This document shows, one piece after another, positions 5,341-31,162 of a stretch of 64,000 nt of DNA. Position 1 is the stretch's first letter; each line of letters starts with the position of its first letter. The translations under genes were made by a program, and so were the position numbers. Below the pieces are notes generated by a model. It did not search any database. It was not told the DNA's origin and was given only the letters and a program-made list of their open reading frames with translations. The stretch comes from Luteolibacter luteus. GTDB taxonomy: Bacteria > Verrucomicrobiota > Verrucomicrobiia > Verrucomicrobiales > Akkermansiaceae. The stretch covers positions 6,076,001-6,140,000 of the forward strand of contig NZ_CP051774.1 of the NCBI RefSeq assembly GCF_012913485.1, in the 5' to 3' direction.

Positions 5341-5835
5341 CATCGTTCCGTCAGCTTGCATCGCCAATCCTTGCTCGCCAAGGAGATCCCCGGAAATCCC
5401 CCGATCGGAGGATGGATCCGCTGCATCCGAACCATCGGAGCTATCGTGCAAAATCGTATGCGTAAATCCCGCTTCTACGCGCACACGTAATACGGGTCGA
5501 GTTGACATTACCGGCACCCCGTCGCACTAACTCCGCCGTGAACCAAAGCACCCCCCTACTTTGGCGCGCCGCAATTAGAATCTGCGAAGCAGCCATCATC
5601 TGTGCCCTCATTTCCCTTGCTGCCCCCGGCATGGCAAAGAAAGTGGCGAACGTTGTCGTGTCGATTCCCGATCGGATCACGACCCTCAAAACGGAACTGA
5701 AGGCGTCACCGTCACCGGGCGACGCGACCCCTTCCCAAGCTCAATCCGGAGTCGGCCTTCCCGCTGGGATGGTCCGCATGAAGTAAGCCGGTAACATCCA
5801 CACGCCGGCGGATGCAGGGCCATTCCGTCGGCGCC
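5341..5835. other. interval between minus-strand genes; at most one doubtful small ORF
   Basis: This stretch separates the start of the nucleoside hydrolase from the stop of the coiled-coil membrane protein. The only possible gene is a plus-strand frame listed separately (5538-5786). The promoter of the nucleoside hydrolase should lie near 5345-5500 on the minus strand, but I could not pick out a -35/-10 pair with confidence. Confidence 0.4.
5538..5786 (+). CDS. possible small protein with one hydrophobic segment
   Basis: From a GTG at 5538 the frame gives about 82 residues. One hydrophobic stretch (ICEAAIICALISLAAPGMA) could be a membrane anchor or a late signal peptide. It is followed by a short polar region and a proline/serine-rich tail (ELKASPSPGDATPS). 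The frame is open back to 5502. No family is recognised, codon evidence is weak, and the opposite strand is also open over much of this stretch. It is listed only because the interval otherwise lacks a gene. Confidence 0.25.
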   Translation: MNQSTPLLWRAAIRICEAAIICALISLAAPGMAKKVANVVVSIPDRITTLKTELKASPSPGDATPSQAQSGVGLPAGMVRMK

Positions 5836-6813
5836 TCAATTCTTCTCTTCCATCCCCGAGATGATCGTCGAGTAGACACCCATCCCCTTCGTCTTCAGTT
5901 CGCTACGGTAACGCTCCAACTGTGCCTCATCCAGCACGGGCCGGAGTTTCTCCACCTTGCCTTCGATCCTCTCATCCACCGCCTTGCGAAAATCCGCGGC
6001 CGACTCCTTGTTCCCGGAACTGCCGCTTTTCATCATCGTGTCGGTCAGCAGCTTTTGAAGACCGAGGTCATAGGGATCCATGTCCACGGCCATGCCGCCG
6101 CTCACGCCGCCACTGAGCATCTTGACGAGTTCAGCCTGCGGATCCGGATTCGCCAGTGCTTCTGCGGCGGACTCCGAAAGCACCCGGTAAACCTCGTCCC
6201 GCTGTCCCTCCTTGAAGTCCATGATCCCCTGCAGCCGCGAGAGCCCCTTCAGGGCCTGGGTGTCGATCTTCCGCGTCTTTTCCCGCTCCTTCAAGACCGT
6301 CATGGCCTCCTGCTGTTCCGGAGTCAAAGTCTCGGCGATGCTCTCATCCAGCGGTGTAGTCCCCATGCCGCGCGCGAGATCGAGATCGGGAACGGCCCCT
6401 CCTGCCTTCCGATCGAGCAGGCCTTCCATCTGTGAAATCTGCTTCTCGATGCCCTCCTTGAGCTTGGCCTCTTGAGCAGGGGTGAGCTGAAGGCTTTCCC
6501 GAAGCGAGGCCACGTGGTCTTCCAGTGCCGAGCGATGCCGGGCCGTCATGTCCTCCTGCATCTTTGTCATCATCTCCCTCGCTGCTGCGGGCATCTTGTT
6601 GTCCGGTTTGCTTGCCGGACGTTCGCGGTCGGTCTTCGCCGGACGATCTGTGGGAGTCGCGCTCGCCGCCGGCTTCTTTTCGGACGAAAGGGACGCCTCG
6701 GCTTTTGTCCCGCTTGGCTGGACCTCCTGTTCCGTCATCGGACGCGCGAACCATCCGATGCCAATCCCGATAAAGAGCGTGCCGATGGGTAAAATGGCAA
6801 GGGAGGGTTTCAT
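5836..6813 (-). CDS. membrane-anchored coiled-coil protein with LTPxQ motifs
   Basis: The 325-residue protein starts with an N-terminal hydrophobic segment (LAILPIGTLFIGIGIGWFA). A low-complexity Ser/Lys/Pro linker follows, roughly residues 28-75. The rest is a long, strongly helical, charge-rich domain. Two LTPxQ-type motifs occur, LQLTPAQEAKLKEGIEKQIS and ETLTPEQQEAMTVL, which recall the LTxxQ motif of Spy/CpxP periplasmic chaperone-like proteins. That similarity is limited to the motif and helical character, so a chaperone or stress-sensor role is only a guess. It lies downstream of the pectate lyase gene on the same strand with a gap of about 110 bases. Confidence 0.75.
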   Translation of the reverse strand: MKPSLAILPIGTLFIGIGIGWFARPMTEQEVQPSGTKAEASLSSEKKPAASATPTDRPAKTDRERPASKPDNKMPAAAREMMTKMQEDMTARHRSALEDHVASLRESLQLTPAQEAKLKEGIEKQISQMEGLLDRKAGGAVPDLDLARGMGTTPLDESIAETLTPEQQEAMTVLKEREKTRKIDTQALKGLSRLQGIMDFKEGQRDEVYRVLSESAAEALANPDPQAELVKMLSGGVSGGMAVDMDPYDLGLQKLLTDTMMKSGSSGNKESAADFRKAVDERIEGKVEKLRPVLDEAQLERYRSELKTKGMGVYSTIISGMEEKN

Positions 6814-25509: not shown

Positions 25510-25938
25510 GACATGTTTGGACCCTAATCCGGGCTGTCCGGCAAGACACACCATGCTTGGCAGCCTTGCCCGGGCACCAGGCGGGACAAGCTCCCCTCGC
25601 AGGGAGACTCCGGCCGATCGTTCGCCGAGCAAGCCCGGCACCATCCCATCCCTGCCACCCTTATTTATAATTGTCGTGTTATGAACTTCCTCTCGTGGTG
25701 GATTATTACAATATGCTAATACTGTATTGTTTTCGTTTCCGAGTTAACAGAATATTTCCTTGCATGAAAGCATGGAATTGATCTACGGATCCAGGTGGTA
25801 AATCCAGTGAGCCTGCAATTGGCATATCAGGCTGCCGTCCTCCCTTACTTGTCTCTTTTTTCCTTCCCGGGAACCGTTTTCCCCGCCGCAAGCCTGCGTC
25901 CGGTTTCCGGAATGTCGCATCCTTGAATCATCACCGAC
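25510..25938. promoter_or_regulatory. low-GC leader upstream of the four-gene unit
   Basis: About 430 bases without a convincing gene. The stretch around 25660-25780 is strikingly AT-rich (runs such as TTATTTATAATTG and GGATTATTACAATATGCTAATACTGTATTG) against GC-rich surroundings. It includes TACAAT (25707-25712) and similar -10-like boxes but no well-placed TTGACA. It probably holds the promoter of the plus-strand unit starting at 25939. A 61-residue frame on the minus strand here is not protein-like. Confidence 0.45.
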
Positions 25939-26967
25939 ATGTCAGCCGAATCGCACCAAACAACCCTCGATTTCTGGTTCGATTTTGACAACCAGACCCT
26001 GTACCAGCGAACCCCGGAAGTCCAAGCCTCGATCGATGCTTCCTACGGCCGCCTGGGTTTGGATCTAGATGGCCTGGTGGATGAGTTCCGCACTTCATTC
26101 GCATCCTCCGCTCATCCGGAGCGCTTCGCGGAACGGATCGCGGACGGCGCGGAGGGATTCCGCGCGCTGGCCGATCTGCAGATGGCGATCATTCGCAGCC
26201 ATTTTCCGGACGGGACTAACGGAGCTCGCCAGACCGCCTTCGAGAAGTTCGGGGAAGGCGTTCTTTATGATGAGAGGAGGATCGTTTTCACGGATCATGT
26301 CATCCATATGATGGACGGAAGCCCCACCACATGGGTGGGCTATCACCGCTGGCATGCCTTCGTGCGCGCGGCTATCCTGTCCGGCGGGGACGCGGCCTCC
26401 TGGCAGGAAGTTCTGGGTTGGATCGCGCTGGCTTGGGCGATTCAGAGCGAGACCGACCCCATGGTAGATAATCCAAGCAACCCGGGAATCCCCGCCGGAC
26501 GCCTCGGGGAGCTCCGCGCGCGCTGGCTTGGTGCGGATGAAGGATTCATCGATGCCGCCTTTGTCCACTTCCGCGGGCCTGCTCCCACGGAGGCAGACCT
26601 TCCCTCTCCCGCCCGCGCCGGCATCGCCACGGTGGCGGGAGAAGAACAGGAAATCTCTCCCTACCTGCGGGTCCAGCAAATCCTCAATGATGCCGCCGGT
26701 ACCGGCCGCCCCAACCATGGCGGAAAGCGGCGCTTCTGGAATCTACCCCACGCGGAGTTCATGGCGCTGGGACCGGTCTACGGCGTGCAGCTCATCGCTC
26801 CGCCAGGCCCCGATCGCGGGGCCCGCTCCGGCCTCGTCCTCGCCCTGAAAGGTGAACCTCCCTTCGGCCCTGGCGGTTTTCCCCGCATGCCGCTGAACCG
26901 CCCGCCGGTCACACCGGAAAATATCCAGTTCATCCAGGACTGGATCGATTGCGATTGCCCGGAATGA
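25939..26967 (+). CDS. unknown cytoplasmic protein, first gene of four-gene unit
   Basis: The 342-residue product lacks a signal peptide and membrane segments. Visible features are a His/Trp-rich block (DHVIHMMDGS, WVGYHRWHAFV) that could bind metal, a Trp-rich helix SWQEVLGWIALAWAI, and a C-terminal segment PVTPENIQFIQDWIDCDC. That last segment recalls the final helix of planctomycete/verrucomicrobial c-type cytochromes (pattern I-x-x-WIDxGCP), although no CxxCH site is present. The family is not recognised. It is followed 46 bases later by an exported haem protein. No Shine-Dalgarno sequence precedes the ATG. Confidence 0.8.
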   Translation: MSAESHQTTLDFWFDFDNQTLYQRTPEVQASIDASYGRLGLDLDGLVDEFRTSFASSAHPERFAERIADGAEGFRALADLQMAIIRSHFPDGTNGARQTAFEKFGEGVLYDERRIVFTDHVIHMMDGSPTTWVGYHRWHAFVRAAILSGGDAASWQEVLGWIALAWAIQSETDPMVDNPSNPGIPAGRLGELRARWLGADEGFIDAAFVHFRGPAPTEADLPSPARAGIATVAGEEQEISPYLRVQQILNDAAGTGRPNHGGKRRFWNLPHAEFMALGPVYGVQLIAPPGPDRGARSGLVLALKGEPPFGPGGFPRMPLNRPPVTPENIQFIQDWIDCDCPE

Positions 26968-27013
26968 CCTGACTCATCCGCCCCCGAAATAACTCATCCT
27001 CCTCCTCCTCCTC

Positions 27014-28087
27014 ATGAAACGAATCCCCCCGCTTGGTATCATTGTCCTTTGTTCCCTTCCCTTGGCCGCGGCCCGCGGGGAAGAACTGCCCGGTGAAAGC
27101 ATCGACCCCGCCACCGCCATCCTGAATCCCGACAAGCACGCATGGGCTCTCTTCACGGAGCTGAATCGCGATGCCGGCACCGGCGACGGGCGGGTGGTCT
27201 GGGAGACTTGGAAAAATGCGGTGAATCCGGACGAAATCTTCAAGCCGGATGGGACGAAGCCCGAGCCTTGGGGAGAGGGCGCGAAGCCCCGCTCGAACAA
27301 GGACTTCGAGAGCCGTCCCAAGCAATTGGAAATGGCCCGGGCTGCCGGAGGGAAGGCAACCATCCAATTCGATCCCGATGCCGGGACGGGCAACGAAGTC
27401 CGCATGAACCGCCCGGCCTTCAACTTCATCGTGGACAACGGCCTCTATAACAAGGAGGGCCAGCTCGCTTTCTTCAGCCGCCAGAATGCCGATCGCCCCG
27501 GCCCCGGCTTCCCCATGGCGGCAAAGGAAATCAAGGCACAATGGCGGCCTCTCGGCGAGGGCAAGGATCCCTCCCGCTATCACACCGCAAAGCACCCGGA
27601 CACGGGCGAGTTATGGGGACTCACTTCCCTCCACATCACCACGAAGGATCTTCCGAACTGGTTCTGGGCCACCTTCGAGCACCGGGACAACGAAGGCATC
27701 GAGGATCAGGTGCCCTCCGTCGATAGCCACGGCCTGCCAGCCCCGCTGAAGGGGACCAAGTGGGAGAATTACGTCCTTCGTGGTACCCAGATCGACTTCG
27801 TTTCCCCGGTGGGCACTCCTACCATCCTGGCCAGTTCCCAGATCGAGGAACCCTTCCAGAAGACCTCCTCCTGCATCACCTGCCATGCCCGGGCCACCAT
27901 CGGCAAGCTGCCGGAAAGCAATGAGTTTCTCGTCCTCGATATCTTCGAATCCTTCTCGCCCCTGCGCGGGTCGGTCGGAGCGCCGGATCCAAGGTGGTTC
28001 TTCGATCCCAATGCACCGGCCAAACGCCTCTATCACCAGCTCGACTTCGTGTGGTCCCTGGACCGCGCCTCATCCGTCAACCGCTAA
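27014..28087 (+). CDS. exported monohaem cytochrome c-family protein
   Basis: The 357-residue product has a signal peptide (PLGIIVLCSLPLAAARGE) and one c-type haem site, C287-I-T-C290-H291 in KTSSCITCHARATIG. The region before it contains HAWALFTELNRDAG followed by RVVWETWKNAVNPDEIF, a pattern I associate with an uncharacterised family of cytochrome c proteins whose N-terminal part has no known role. It should be exported and haem-loaded in the periplasm. It sits between an unknown protein and a subtilase in a tight unit (13 bases to the subtilase start). Confidence 0.85.
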   Translation: MKRIPPLGIIVLCSLPLAAARGEELPGESIDPATAILNPDKHAWALFTELNRDAGTGDGRVVWETWKNAVNPDEIFKPDGTKPEPWGEGAKPRSNKDFESRPKQLEMARAAGGKATIQFDPDAGTGNEVRMNRPAFNFIVDNGLYNKEGQLAFFSRQNADRPGPGFPMAAKEIKAQWRPLGEGKDPSRYHTAKHPDTGELWGLTSLHITTKDLPNWFWATFEHRDNEGIEDQVPSVDSHGLPAPLKGTKWENYVLRGTQIDFVSPVGTPTILASSQIEEPFQKTSSCITCHARATIGKLPESNEFLVLDIFESFSPLRGSVGAPDPRWFFDPNAPAKRLYHQLDFVWSLDRASSVNR

Positions 28088-28099
28088 CCAACTGAAGCC

Positions 28100-29659
28100 A
28101 TGATCGAGAAGAGAATCAGGGACAAGGAATTGCTACGCTACCATCCGGACAAGATGATCGTGAAGGTGAGGCCGGAAGCGGCAGCTCCGGCACGCGCGGG
28201 AGTGCGGAGCTTTGGTGCGCTGGAGAGCGCCTCCGCGGGATTGGGAATCCTCCAGAGGTTGGAAAGGGCGGGAGTCGTGAAGGCCGTGCACTCGCTGGCC
28301 GGTCCTTCGCGCGGGTTCGAGCCTGAAGTCATCCGCCGCGGCAGAACCATGACGGCAGCCGCCTTGGAAACCTCCTTCGCGGCGGAGCGCCAGGATCCTT
28401 CCAAGGGCGGATCCATGTTGGTGGAACTTAGCCAGCAATCCGAAGACGAACTGGCGAGACTGCGCCTGCAATTGGTGGATGATCCCTATGTGGAGTATGC
28501 CTCCTTGGTCCCGATCCGCTATCTCATGCTGCCGGCCAAGAAGAGGCCGCGGGCCGGTATCGCCGCGACTCCGCCCGCGACGAATACCCTGTGGAATCTC
28601 GACAAGATTCTCTGGCGGCAGGCAAGGGGCCGGAACGGCTTCGTCGATGCGGACGGGGTCAGCATCGCGGTGCTCGATTCCGGCATTGATGAGTTCCATC
28701 CGGACCTCCAGCCGGTGATGTCGAGCAATACCATGGGCTATCCCGATGTCCCCTCCTCTTCGTCGAAGGACGTGATCGGGCACGGGACACACGTCGCGGG
28801 CATCATCGGTGCCGCCATGAACAATGGCGTGGGAATCAACGGCGTATGCCGTTGCCAGCTCCACGGTTGGAAGATCTTCGACGACGAGCCCGACTATGAC
28901 GGCGAGAGCTACGTCTATTGGGTGGATCCGGTGATGTATTACCGGGCGCTGCGGGCCTGCATCCGGGAGGGGATCCAAATCGTGAACCTGAGCATCGGCG
29001 GTGGCGGGGAGCCCGATCAGGACGAGAAGGCGCTCTTTGCGGAAATGGTGGAAAAGGGAACCGTGGTGGTGGCGGCGATGGGCAATGAGCGGACCATCGG
29101 TAGTCCGGTTTCCTATCCCGCGGCTCTCCCTGGAGTCATCGCCGTCGGTGCCACCGATCTCGCGGACCGCGTCGCCCGCTTCTCGAATTCGGGCAACCAC
29201 ATCTCCGTGAGCGCACCGGGGGTCGGGATCTGGTCCACCCTGCCGACTTACGCCGGGCAAACCGGATTCAATGTGGGCACGAGTCCCGCCGGAAGGCGCG
29301 TCCCGGGCTCCCCGCACAAGCGTGAGATTGACTATGACGAATGGGATGGGACCTCCATGGCCGCTCCCCATGTCGCGGGAGCGGCCGCATTGTACCTCGC
29401 ACGGAATCCCGATGCCTCACCCGAACAGGTAAAGGATGCCTTGGAACGGAGCGCCGACCAGGTCCCGGGCATGAGGGGACGGGATCATCACCCGGACTTC
29501 GGCTTCGGCCGCATCAATCTCGAAGCCTTGCTCGCCCCACCTGCCGGTCCTTCGTCCGCTAGGAAAAGGCCGGCCCGGAAAGTGGCCGCCAAGAAGGCTC
29601 CAGCAAGGAAAGCGGCCAAAGCCGCTGCGAAAAAGGGTGCCGCGCGAAAACCCGCGTGA
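28100..29659 (+). CDS. subtilisin-like (S8) serine protease with histone-like tail
   Basis: The 519-residue protein has no signal peptide. Residues about 15-145 form a propeptide-like region (IVKVRPE, and MLVELSQQSEDELARLRL). The catalytic domain has Asp193 in VLDSGIDEFHP, His228 in IGHGTHVAG, oxyanion Asn329 in AAMGNE and Ser419 in DGTSMAAPH, so it should be active. It ends near residue 480. The last 33 residues are almost entirely Ala, Lys, Arg and Pro (ARKRPARKVAAKKAPARK and on), like the tails of bacterial histone H1-like and HU-like proteins. With no export signal, the protein would stay in the cytoplasm unless exported by another route, and the tail suggests nucleic-acid binding. Confidence 0.92.
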   Translation: MIEKRIRDKELLRYHPDKMIVKVRPEAAAPARAGVRSFGALESASAGLGILQRLERAGVVKAVHSLAGPSRGFEPEVIRRGRTMTAAALETSFAAERQDPSKGGSMLVELSQQSEDELARLRLQLVDDPYVEYASLVPIRYLMLPAKKRPRAGIAATPPATNTLWNLDKILWRQARGRNGFVDADGVSIAVLDSGIDEFHPDLQPVMSSNTMGYPDVPSSSSKDVIGHGTHVAGIIGAAMNNGVGINGVCRCQLHGWKIFDDEPDYDGESYVYWVDPVMYYRALRACIREGIQIVNLSIGGGGEPDQDEKALFAEMVEKGTVVVAAMGNERTIGSPVSYPAALPGVIAVGATDLADRVARFSNSGNHISVSAPGVGIWSTLPTYAGQTGFNVGTSPAGRRVPGSPHKREIDYDEWDGTSMAAPHVAGAAALYLARNPDASPEQVKDALERSADQVPGMRGRDHHPDFGFGRINLEALLAPPAGPSSARKRPARKVAAKKAPARKAAKAAAKKGAARKPA

Positions 29660-29727
29660 TTCCCCCGAGTCCGGAATCTCGATTCATTCAGCCTTTGATC
29701 CCGCGGAAAATCCGCTATCGTCTGAAC

Positions 29728-29982
29728 ATGGCAGAGGTCTTCTTCCATGTGCAGCCGGGGATCGGGCAAAAGCAGCTCGAACACGCCTTCCGGCCGATCC
29801 TCCGCGATGAAGCGGCGGGACCGCCGCAGCGCCTCTATCCGGATGCAGAGCCGGGAACGAAGGACTCCCGCGCCTTCTATGTCCGCTTGCGCCCGGAAAC
29901 GCCGGCGGAGGAAGCATTGGACCGGATCAAGTCCCTGGAACTGGTGGAACGCGCCAGCATCCCGGCCCGCCGGGGGCTCTGA
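29728..29982 (+). CDS. small protein resembling a subtilase propeptide
   Basis: From the ATG at 29728 the product has 84 residues and no signal. It begins AEVFFHVQPGIGQKQLEHAF and ends RAFYVRLRPETPAEEALDRI followed by KSLELVERASIPARR. The second part lines up by eye with the propeptide-like stretch of the upstream subtilase (MLVELSQQSEDELARLRL ... DDPYVEYASLVPIR), with a matching strand, helix and final A-S-[LI]-P-x-R. Free-standing propeptide-like proteins (I9 type) inhibit or help fold subtilases in other organisms. A role as inhibitor, chaperone or decoy of the upstream protease is an inference. The frame reaches back to 29656, overlapping the subtilase stop, so a longer form is possible. 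Confidence 0.65.
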   Translation: MAEVFFHVQPGIGQKQLEHAFRPILRDEAAGPPQRLYPDAEPGTKDSRAFYVRLRPETPAEEALDRIKSLELVERASIPARRGL

Positions 29983-30089
29983 TGGGATCGGAATTCCCTG
30001 CCGCCATGCAGCCCGCCCCTCGATTGGTTGGGGGCTGCTCCTTGGTCTGCGAGCCTCCAGTTCGTTTGGGATCGCAGGACCGGCGAGCG

Positions 30090-30119
30090 GGATTCCCTTC
30101 ATGATGCTCCCGGGAATCC
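30090..30119 (+). terminator. hairpin downstream of the four-gene unit
   Basis: GGATTCCC (30090-30097) pairs with GGGAATCC (30112-30119) around a 14-base loop, about 110 bases after the last gene of the unit. No strong T-run follows. It may mark the end of the transcript. Confidence 0.35.
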
Positions 30120-30238
30120 GCCACTCGCAATTCCCTCCTTGTCAATAGCCCCGGATCATCCCTGCACCATCTTTCACATACCCGTTCTCCCCGCTTGCCC
30201 CCCTCGCCGGGGCCGCCCATGATCGGGGCGCGCCGCCC

Positions 30239-31162
30239 ATGAAAGTCAGCCCCTACAAGCGTTTTGAAAAAGCCTTCAAACGCGCTTATCTCAAGCCCCT
30301 TACGCTGATCCGCTACGGAACTTTGCATCCGGAGCGGGCGAAGCTCCATGGCAGCGACCATTGGATCTACATCGATGCCTATGACCCCTGCGCCCGCAAG
30401 AAGGTGGTCGAGGAGCCGCTGCGCGGGAAAGTTTCCGATAACCTCATCTTCTGGCGCGATTTCAACCGCCACCTCCAGCCCGACCTGATCGTGGACGTGG
30501 GCCTGAACTACGGCGAGTGCCTCTTCGGCACCGACTACGCGGAGAATGCTGTCTTTTACGGCTTCGAGGCGAATCCCCGTCTGATCCCGCACCTCGAGAA
30601 GAGCAAGGCTGAGCACCCCGCCGGCCTGCGCATGACGATTACCAATTGCTTGGTCTCGGATCAATCCGCGGACGACATTCCTTTCTTCGTGAATCCGGAC
30701 TGGAGCGGTTCCTCCTCCGCGGTGAAGGAAATGAACACCCGCCCGCAGACGCTCGAATTCAAGCTCCCCGCCCGCACCATCGATTCGATCGTGCCGCTCG
30801 ATGAAGCACGCGGAAAGACCCTGCTCTTCAAGATGGACATCGAGGGTTACGAGAGCAAGGCGCTCCGGGGCTTTGTCGAGACCCTCGCTTCCGTGTCCCG
30901 CTCGGTGGGCTTCATCGAGTTCGATGCTCAGTACATCCGCTGGGCCGGGCAATCTCCGGAAGAATACCTTTCCTGGCTGCAGCAGCGCTTCAATACCTAT
31001 CGGGTCAGCGGCATCAAGGCGAAGACCCTGAAGCGGGTGACCAGCTTCGATGATCTGCCGAAACTCCATGGCAATGCCGAACGCGTGCATACCGACCTCG
31101 TGCTGATCGGCAAGCAAACCCCGGATGGCTGGCTGGCTCCCGAATGGACCATCACGCACTAA
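30239..31162 (+). CDS. FkbM-family methyltransferase
   Basis: The 307-residue cytoplasmic protein has FkbM-type features: SAM motif I variant LIVDVGLNYGECLFG, VFYGFEANPRLIPHLE for the strand-2 acid, TLEFKLPARTIDSIVPLDEA, and the hallmark LFKMDIEGYESKALRGF. FkbM-like enzymes O-methylate sugars or other hydroxyl groups. As the first gene in a glycan-modification cluster, methylation of a surface polysaccharide is the likely job. It has no Shine-Dalgarno sequence; the start lies in a GC-rich stretch that contains two copies of GCCGCCCATGA, only the second of which begins this frame. Confidence 0.85.
   Translation: MKVSPYKRFEKAFKRAYLKPLTLIRYGTLHPERAKLHGSDHWIYIDAYDPCARKKVVEEPLRGKVSDNLIFWRDFNRHLQPDLIVDVGLNYGECLFGTDYAENAVFYGFEANPRLIPHLEKSKAEHPAGLRMTITNCLVSDQSADDIPFFVNPDWSGSSSAVKEMNTRPQTLEFKLPARTIDSIVPLDEARGKTLLFKMDIEGYESKALRGFVETLASVSRSVGFIEFDAQYIRWAGQSPEEYLSWLQQRFNTYRVSGIKAKTLKRVTSFDDLPKLHGNAERVHTDLVLIGKQTPDGWLAPEWTITH

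Follow-up and report, generated by a model that had tools for sequence, protein, structure and literature searches.

The described systems that come closest to the locus discussed here, a group of four genes (A to D) in a 64,000-nucleotide stretch of the Luteolibacter luteus genome (contig NZ_CP051774.1, positions 6,076,001 to 6,140,000; this whole stretch is the window below), are the cytochromes P460 and c'-beta (PF16694) for the haem protein B, the fungal enzyme AsqI and the planctomycete cytochrome C domain PSCyt1 (PF07635) for S, the C-terminal part of A, and the S8 subtilisins for the protease C. The lysine that cross-links to the P460 haem is Lys106 in NsP460 (Table 2 of PMC11928373), and the main text of this review contains no word starting with "peptidase" or "protease". 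AsqI is a hemocyanin-like zinc enzyme, a cyclopenase (PDB 5yy2/5yy3; PMC6053404).

B has in common with the P460/c'-beta proteins its predicted fold, a single haem c with the CxxCH near the C-terminus and an export signal, and in one of two hhalign runs its K174 falls on the P460 cross-link lysine. However, it has about 330 mature residues where the matched chains have 135-160, shows no significant sequence match to them, carries invariant Trp-rich motifs, and has peptidases and copper oxidases as neighbours. S is joined to a hemocyanin-like enzyme in AsqI and to a tyrosinase elsewhere in the Luteolibacter genome, but AsqI is a fungal biosynthetic enzyme, and no hemocyanin- or tyrosinase-like part is recognised in A. 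We know of no B or peptidase partner of AsqI. With PSCyt1, S shares the MP...WI pattern, but it lacks the CxxCH. C, finally, has the full Pfam match and the intact catalytic motifs of the S8 subtilisins, but differs from them in the absence of a signal peptide, in a Lys/Ala-rich tail and in a gene that adjoins B and S. The features concerned are these:

A, 25939-26967, + strand: open reading frame (ORF) with two parts, the second of which is S.
S domain (C-terminal part of A), 26584-26967, + strand: putative haem-less cytochrome-c-type domain with an MP...WI motif.
B, 27014-28087, + strand: exported mono-haem c protein with one CxxCH near the C-terminus, a predicted P460/c'-beta-like fold and invariant K174, H207 and E278.
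C, 28100-29659, + strand: S8 subtilase without a signal peptide, catalytic motifs intact, with a Lys/Ala-rich C-terminal tail.

B, S and peptidases recur as neighbours in distant bacteria, and of this genomic association we are confident. A genome scan, limited to genes that contain one of two peptide patterns, gave 49 loci with relatives of B, in Planctomycetota, Alphaproteobacteria, Nitrospira, Acidobacteriota, Chloroflexota, Myxococcales and others; further relatives are on 51 plasmid records, mostly rhizobial. We split them ourselves into a short form, mostly of 360-450 amino acids, and a distant form, mostly of 500-600 (e.g. in Nitrosomonas and Rheinheimera); some distant forms have 390-490, and this form is not defined by length alone. 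For the short form we used 44 loci, namely the window, 28 of the 49 scan loci and 15 of the 51 plasmid records, hand-picked for spread; one of them has a weak B match (L118, 8e-24). They are not independent, L008/L119, L037/L112 and L111/L113/L120 being near relatives. The other 21 scan loci, three loci from the window's family and twelve further ones make up 36 distant-form controls. All ORFs in flanks of 10.9 kb on average for the short form and 10.5 kb for the distant form (at most 12 kb) were searched with local profiles. Of the short-form loci, 21 of 44 have S within 1 kb of B, as against 0 of the 36 controls (p 2.3e-7). An S8 subtilase lies within 3 kb in 10 of 44 as against 0 of 36; with an S53 ORF of L116 that also scores with the S8 profile, and that we count as S53, the number is 11 (p 7.9e-4). 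A tyrosinase is found within 3 kb in 7 of 44 and again in none of the 36 (p 0.015).

The 28 genomes of the scan's short-form loci, a sample drawn on B alone, hold 125 S8 places in 177.6 Mb, so that 0.13 genomes with an S8 gene within 3 kb of B are expected; five are observed (G333, G336, G340, G348 and G350; Poisson P 3e-7), or four if the related loci L020 and L023 are counted once (P 1e-5). In G348 (locus L035) the S8 gene beside B is the sole one of the genome. On a tree of 43 B rows, which leaves out L008 and L118, presence of S8 changes at least 7 times; for any peptidase, counting weak calls as well, the minimum is 12 changes. On the same tree the pairing of S with peptidase is not significant by an independent-pairs test (median p 0.25, 6 pairs). 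The order S-B-S8 on one strand, with a gap of 12-99 bases between B and S8, is seen in the window, L011, L027 and L035.

Since S and S8 both occur beside B more often than in the controls or by chance, the pairing of redox with proteolysis suggested by the preliminary description of this DNA is supported as a genomic association. The expectation that the genes would co-occur beyond close relatives was borne out across phyla for the core of S, B and peptidase. It failed for the unit as a whole: all four genes together were found only in the window, and no B elsewhere was found to have a relative of D or of the N-terminal half of A as its neighbour.

The partners of B are varied. By profile, Pfam cut-off or annotation, 17 of the 44 short-form loci have a peptidase, and four more have a weak or fragmentary one (L010, L021, L025, L120; the first three are weak or motif-only calls). 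A tyrosinase is the only such partner in two (L041, L043), and a large protein that we call VioB-like in three (L012, L040, L045). Pfam was run on 44 hand-chosen proteins, so that for families not covered by the S8, M4 and S53 profiles the peptidase counts are minimum values. M4 peptidases are partners in L028 and L115 by Pfam or annotation; the M4 profile also matched L043 and L117, because one of its seeds carries a haem-c domain, and these are not counted. S53 peptidases occur in L114 and L116, with an S53 piece in L120, a papain-type C1 peptidase in L019, caspase-family proteins in L011 and L117, serine proteases in L008 and L117, and a multicopper oxidase in L116. L118 has an annotated S8 gene about 5 kb from B, and the cut piece scanned with Pfam gave no match. 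Several partners are fused: B itself to a trypsin domain in L019 (E 5.2e-25), S8 to a tyrosinase in L008 and L119, and in L115 an M4 peptidase with a signal peptide to a C-terminal haem-c domain (PF13442, E 3.1e-6). Separate haem-c genes lie near B in L043 and L117.

Some neighbourhoods are worth recording in their own right. The large proteins of L012 (7236-9239, a cyanobacterium), L040 (2358-4286, Polyangia) and L045 (9829-12963, Myxococcales) match each other's profile; we take them to resemble VioB-type enzymes, and the two searched in Pfam had no match. Three Rhizobium plasmids (L111, L113, L120) have B and no annotated peptidase nearby, with phaC and repA adjoining in L111 and L120. In L120 the S53-like piece stands directly behind B, as if the partner were decaying.

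B starts with a signal-peptide-like stretch (here and below judged by a hydrophobicity rule, not by SignalP) and has a single CxxCH, which agrees with its first description as an exported c-type haem protein. Such a start is present in 42 of 47 short-form B ORFs. The five others are L038, L039 and L118, with doubtful starts, L115, with a hydrophobic start that lacks both Lys and Arg, and the second of the two pieces in L008, where the gene is frameshifted. In L008 (5887-7046, plasmid B of Sinorhizobium americanum CCGM7) the frameshift splits B into two annotated ORFs, and the near relative L119 has one ORF. K174, H207, E278 and the CxxCH (C287, C290, H291) are conserved throughout, in all 46 short-form rows that have letters at these positions and in all 36 distant-form rows; W177, W216 and W218 are kept in nearly all rows. 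As an invariant Lys, His and Glu stand beside the CxxCH, B is likelier to be an enzyme than a plain electron carrier. The B nearest to that of the window, in L019, is 49% identical; the tree does not support this strongly.

A, B and D have no match in Pfam, NCBIfam or PADLOC at E<=1, and for B this includes the P460 family. Against the PDB by sequence, B as a single protein gave nothing and its profile only chance-level rows, so the link to P460 rests mainly on a structure model. The AlphaFold (AF2) model of B, built from 30 rows, has a mean predicted local distance difference test (pLDDT) score of 86.5 and a predicted template modelling score (pTM) of 0.85. Foldseek returned nothing significant for it, the first three chains being P460/c'-beta at E 0.16-0.24. 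In VIA-align the top 17 rows were all P460/c'-beta (Z 6.1-7.4, 122-136 aligned residues) and the next unrelated row had 3.8. We therefore predict, with moderate confidence, a fold resembling cytochrome P460/c'-beta. An hhalign comparison of B with 16 of 17 P460-family matches (from eight of ten genomes) gave E 0.031, and 1 of 150 column shuffles did as well. In this run with all 16 rows the CxxCH motifs matched and K174 was placed on the lysine that is Lys106 of NsP460; with only the Lys-type P460 rows the E-value was 0.0055 and K174 was not on that lysine, which speaks against the equivalence. In the absence of a sequence-profile match we call B P460-like in fold and not a P460 member; it has the look of a distant and enlarged offshoot of the P460/c'-beta fold.

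The first description of A as an unknown protein overlooked S: over its C-terminal third, A can be aligned with small proteins that adjoin B in other loci. S has two subforms, whose profiles match each other at E 4.8e-6, and it is without CxxCH in 13 of 13 rows of the alignment and in all of a set of 19 S sequences. Its profile matches residues 659-744 of AsqI in the PDB (E 1.1e-6), FoxE weakly, and a CxxCH-bearing protein of the same Luteolibacter genome (E 6.5e-4), which by eye we take to be PSCyt1. One S protein matches PSCyt1 itself at E 0.0021, with 19.1 of the 22 bits required, just below the Pfam cut-off, and direct hhalign runs of S against three haem-c domains were weak (E 0.18 and 0.015). 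Given the matches to AsqI, FoxE and PSCyt1 and the missing CxxCH, S is in all likelihood related to cytochrome c domains but haem-less, and it is not a member of the PSCyt1 haem c family. A second cluster with S lies 0.93 Mb into the same genome, with an S8 subtilase, a multicopper oxidase and then a fusion of S to a tyrosinase (PF00264, E 2.6e-38). A second B was not found in this genome.

C is a subtilase without a signal-peptide-like stretch, as first described: it matches Peptidase_S8 (PF00082) at E 4.8e-53 and keeps the catalytic Asp, His and Ser motifs (VLDSG 191, GHGTH 227, GTSMA 417). In related genomes there are ordinary S8 matches to it in 33 of 38, the best of them outside the own genome having E 1.2e-19 and 37% identity. 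In PADLOC, C matches only models named subtilase and IetS, and the IetA partner was not searched for. Its match to the NCBIfam model QhpE, 62.2 bits against a cut-off of 165, is below threshold and at the level of S8 in general. Both own-genome subtilases that adjoin S (28100-29659 in the window, and L121 4648-6387 in the second cluster) have a histone-H1-like Lys/Ala-rich stretch, C-terminal in C and N-terminal in the other.

B is present in 4 of 57 related genomes, the host's own among them, and in 0 of 17 other genomes of the genus, and A was found, among the related genomes searched, in the host genome only; hence the A-D group is accessory. S matches of 3.6e-8 to 7.7e-7 occur in 7 of the 57, all from other families, and the other 17 genomes of the genus have no S match at E<=1e-6. 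In one order, 14 of 397 genomes have a B match at E<=1e-20, mostly of distant forms. Our best reading is that A-D is a laterally acquired copy of a recurrent, mosaic module.

As to what such a module would do, we favour, with a probability of roughly 35%, an exchangeable haem/copper device that oxidises and cuts, because its partners share protein cutting and the oxidation of phenolic or aromatic groups. It would consist of the haem protein B, of S (in the window the C-terminal part of A) and of an exchangeable enzyme (in the window C), and this third position is indeed filled repeatedly by peptidases of unrelated families or by copper oxidases. B would be an enzyme outside the cytoplasm, whose haem may oxidise a small nitrogen or oxygen substrate, peroxide or aromatic groups, with K174 possibly in place of the cross-linking lysine of P460. 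S may have arisen from a cytochrome c by loss of the haem and now serve for docking. Its fusion to a tyrosinase in the same genome and, in a fungus, to a hemocyanin-like enzyme leads us to assign it to the partner enzyme. The module would couple the oxidation of protein or phenolic material to the cleavage of that material. C would be the cutting part, made as a zymogen, and would either reach its substrate by a non-Sec route or act inside the cell.

Several observations weigh against this proposal. In 18 of the 44 short-form loci the searches made found no peptidase, copper oxidase or VioB-like neighbour, and M4, S53 and VioB-like neighbours are singly not significant against the controls (p 0.12-0.25). 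The fold of B is a moderate call, as VIA-align Z-scores below 8 may reflect a common arrangement, and by hmmsearch against 16 P460 proteins the best E was 0.008, covering the CxxCH only. Nor is the N-terminal part of A recognised as an oxidase, an hhalign comparison with tyrosinases giving E 0.5. Among A, B and C, only B carries an export signal. The puzzle of an exported haem protein beside a retained protease, raised in the preliminary description, is real in the window but not general: partner peptidases have signal-peptide-like starts in L008, L023, L037, L112 and L115, and lack them in the window, L027, L028, L035 and L116.

A stronger version, which we regard as doubtful, would make this a new kind of enzyme system. 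Proteins or peptides would be oxidised by an exported haem enzyme of P460 fold, and an endopeptidase or phenol oxidase, docked and exchangeable, would complete their processing; S would be a universal adaptor, which also persists in a fungal hemocyanin-like biosynthetic enzyme. Literature searches among open-licence papers returned none that we recognised as describing the association of B, S and peptidase. It is apparently undescribed, and there is a minority chance that the whole system is new in kind. Should the oxidise-and-cut proposal hold, the P460/c'-beta fold, hitherto treated in connection with the chemistry of NH2OH and NO, would have a widely scattered branch tied to proteolysis and phenol oxidation, haem-less cytochrome domains would serve as adaptors, and bacterial and fungal hemocyanin-like chemistry would be linked. 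The B family, which goes by "hypothetical protein" in those of the viewed plasmid records that carry annotation, would gain a testable function. Its pairing with proteases and copper oxidases suggests a link, so far undescribed, between oxidation and the processing of proteins.

The locus could also be read as a biosynthetic cluster, in which peptidase and oxidases tailor a product derived from a peptide or amino acid, by leader removal and oxidation, and D or another small ORF is the precursor. S is indeed shared with AsqI, a natural-product enzyme, tyrosinases and the large proteins that we call VioB-like adjoin B, and D is a small orphan ORF directly behind C. C also has its S8-level match, far below cut-off, to QhpE, which we take to be the maturation protease of quinohaemoprotein amine dehydrogenase. 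However, no recurring precursor family was seen beside B, where no systematic search was made, and many of the partners are broad endopeptidases (M4, S53, papain, trypsin) and not maturation proteases. In our opinion this explanation is unlikely, though it is the best of the alternatives.

Somewhat less probable again is that B acts as a sensor of NO, NH2OH or peroxide on the outer side of the membrane and switches the protease via S. The predicted fold would suit this, as members of the P460/c'-beta superfamily bind NO or oxidise NH2OH (PMC11928373), and so would a signal peptide in B with none in A and C. Against it, there is no transmembrane relay gene among A-D, and in other loci the peptidase is exported or fused to B, so that no cross-membrane signal is needed.

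That the locus is a defence or conflict system with exchangeable suicide effectors seems to us improbable. It is true that B is patchy and rare, as the 14 of 397 genomes illustrate, and often plasmid-borne, that some partners are effector-like, caspase-family proteins included, and that two loci have toxin-antitoxin or restriction-like neighbours. On the other side, PADLOC has no model for A, B or D and its S8 matches for C may be generic, several partner enzymes have signal peptides, and tyrosinases and multicopper oxidases are not usual suicide effectors. Least probable is that B, S and peptidases merely share mobile DNA without a joint function: many B loci are on plasmids, some near transposases, and the independent-pairs test is not significant, but five S8 neighbours against 0.13 expected, no S8 in 36 control loci with similar flanks, the fusions and the repeated partner changes on the B tree argue otherwise.

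The remaining features of the locus are the following:

A, N-terminal part (about residues 1-215), 25939-26583, + strand: domain with an HMM...YHRWHxF motif and no Pfam, NCBIfam or PADLOC match at E<=1.
D, 29656-29982, + strand: small orphan ORF, probably from the ATG at 29728 (84 amino acids).
AT-rich leader, 25661-25800, no strand: G+C 0.35.

The arrangement of four genes in one orientation with short gaps is as first described, with 46 bases between A and B, 12 between B and C and an overlap of 4 between C and D. The leader was rightly called unusually AT-rich, its G+C being the minimum of 3193 sampled 140-base windows across the 64 kb; the genes A-D themselves have 0.62-0.64, near the 0.617 of the whole window. 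The leader is probably a regulatory region or an acquisition boundary. A promoter scan of 25600-30300 gave 2 sites against 1.0 +- 0.9 in shuffles. The host genome has 6.41 Mb in one contig.

For D, codon usage is coding-like (0.28 per codon from ATG 29728 against 0.20-0.29 for A-C), and in 57 genomes one 34-residue match besides itself was found, in one genome (E 6.6e-4). Its proposed resemblance to a subtilase propeptide has no sequence support: BLASTP against C gave a best E of 3.1, Pfam had nothing at E<=1, and hhalign against the prodomains of C and four relatives gave E 0.42, within the range of 100 shuffles of D.

In the N-terminal part of A the His/Trp block noted at the outset is there, as HMM...YHRWHAF, and it is shared with Tat-signal proteins of Streptomyces plasmids (28-29% identity); A has no signal peptide. 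A tyrosinase/hemocyanin domain, an idea that came from the YHRWH motif, was unsupported (hhalign as above, no Pfam match). In a PDB profile search no row rose above chance level (best E 0.31), a scan of viral contigs for relatives of this part gave none, and across 288 genomes of the phylum the only matches were that of the host itself and one of 54 residues (E 9.9e-4). The AF2 model of A, from 13 rows, has pLDDT 53 and is unusable. In the Streptomyces plasmids the Tat-signal relatives lie at 5833-6624 in both L013 and L014, and in L013 the gene is directly upstream of annotated inositol-3-phosphate synthase, prenyltransferase, EboA and EboE genes. In two relatives from the window's own family, a distant-form B (L015 9958-11495, L016 5887-7453) adjoins a gene pair whose products look like DUF692 and DUF2063 proteins, of the methanobactin/bufferin type.

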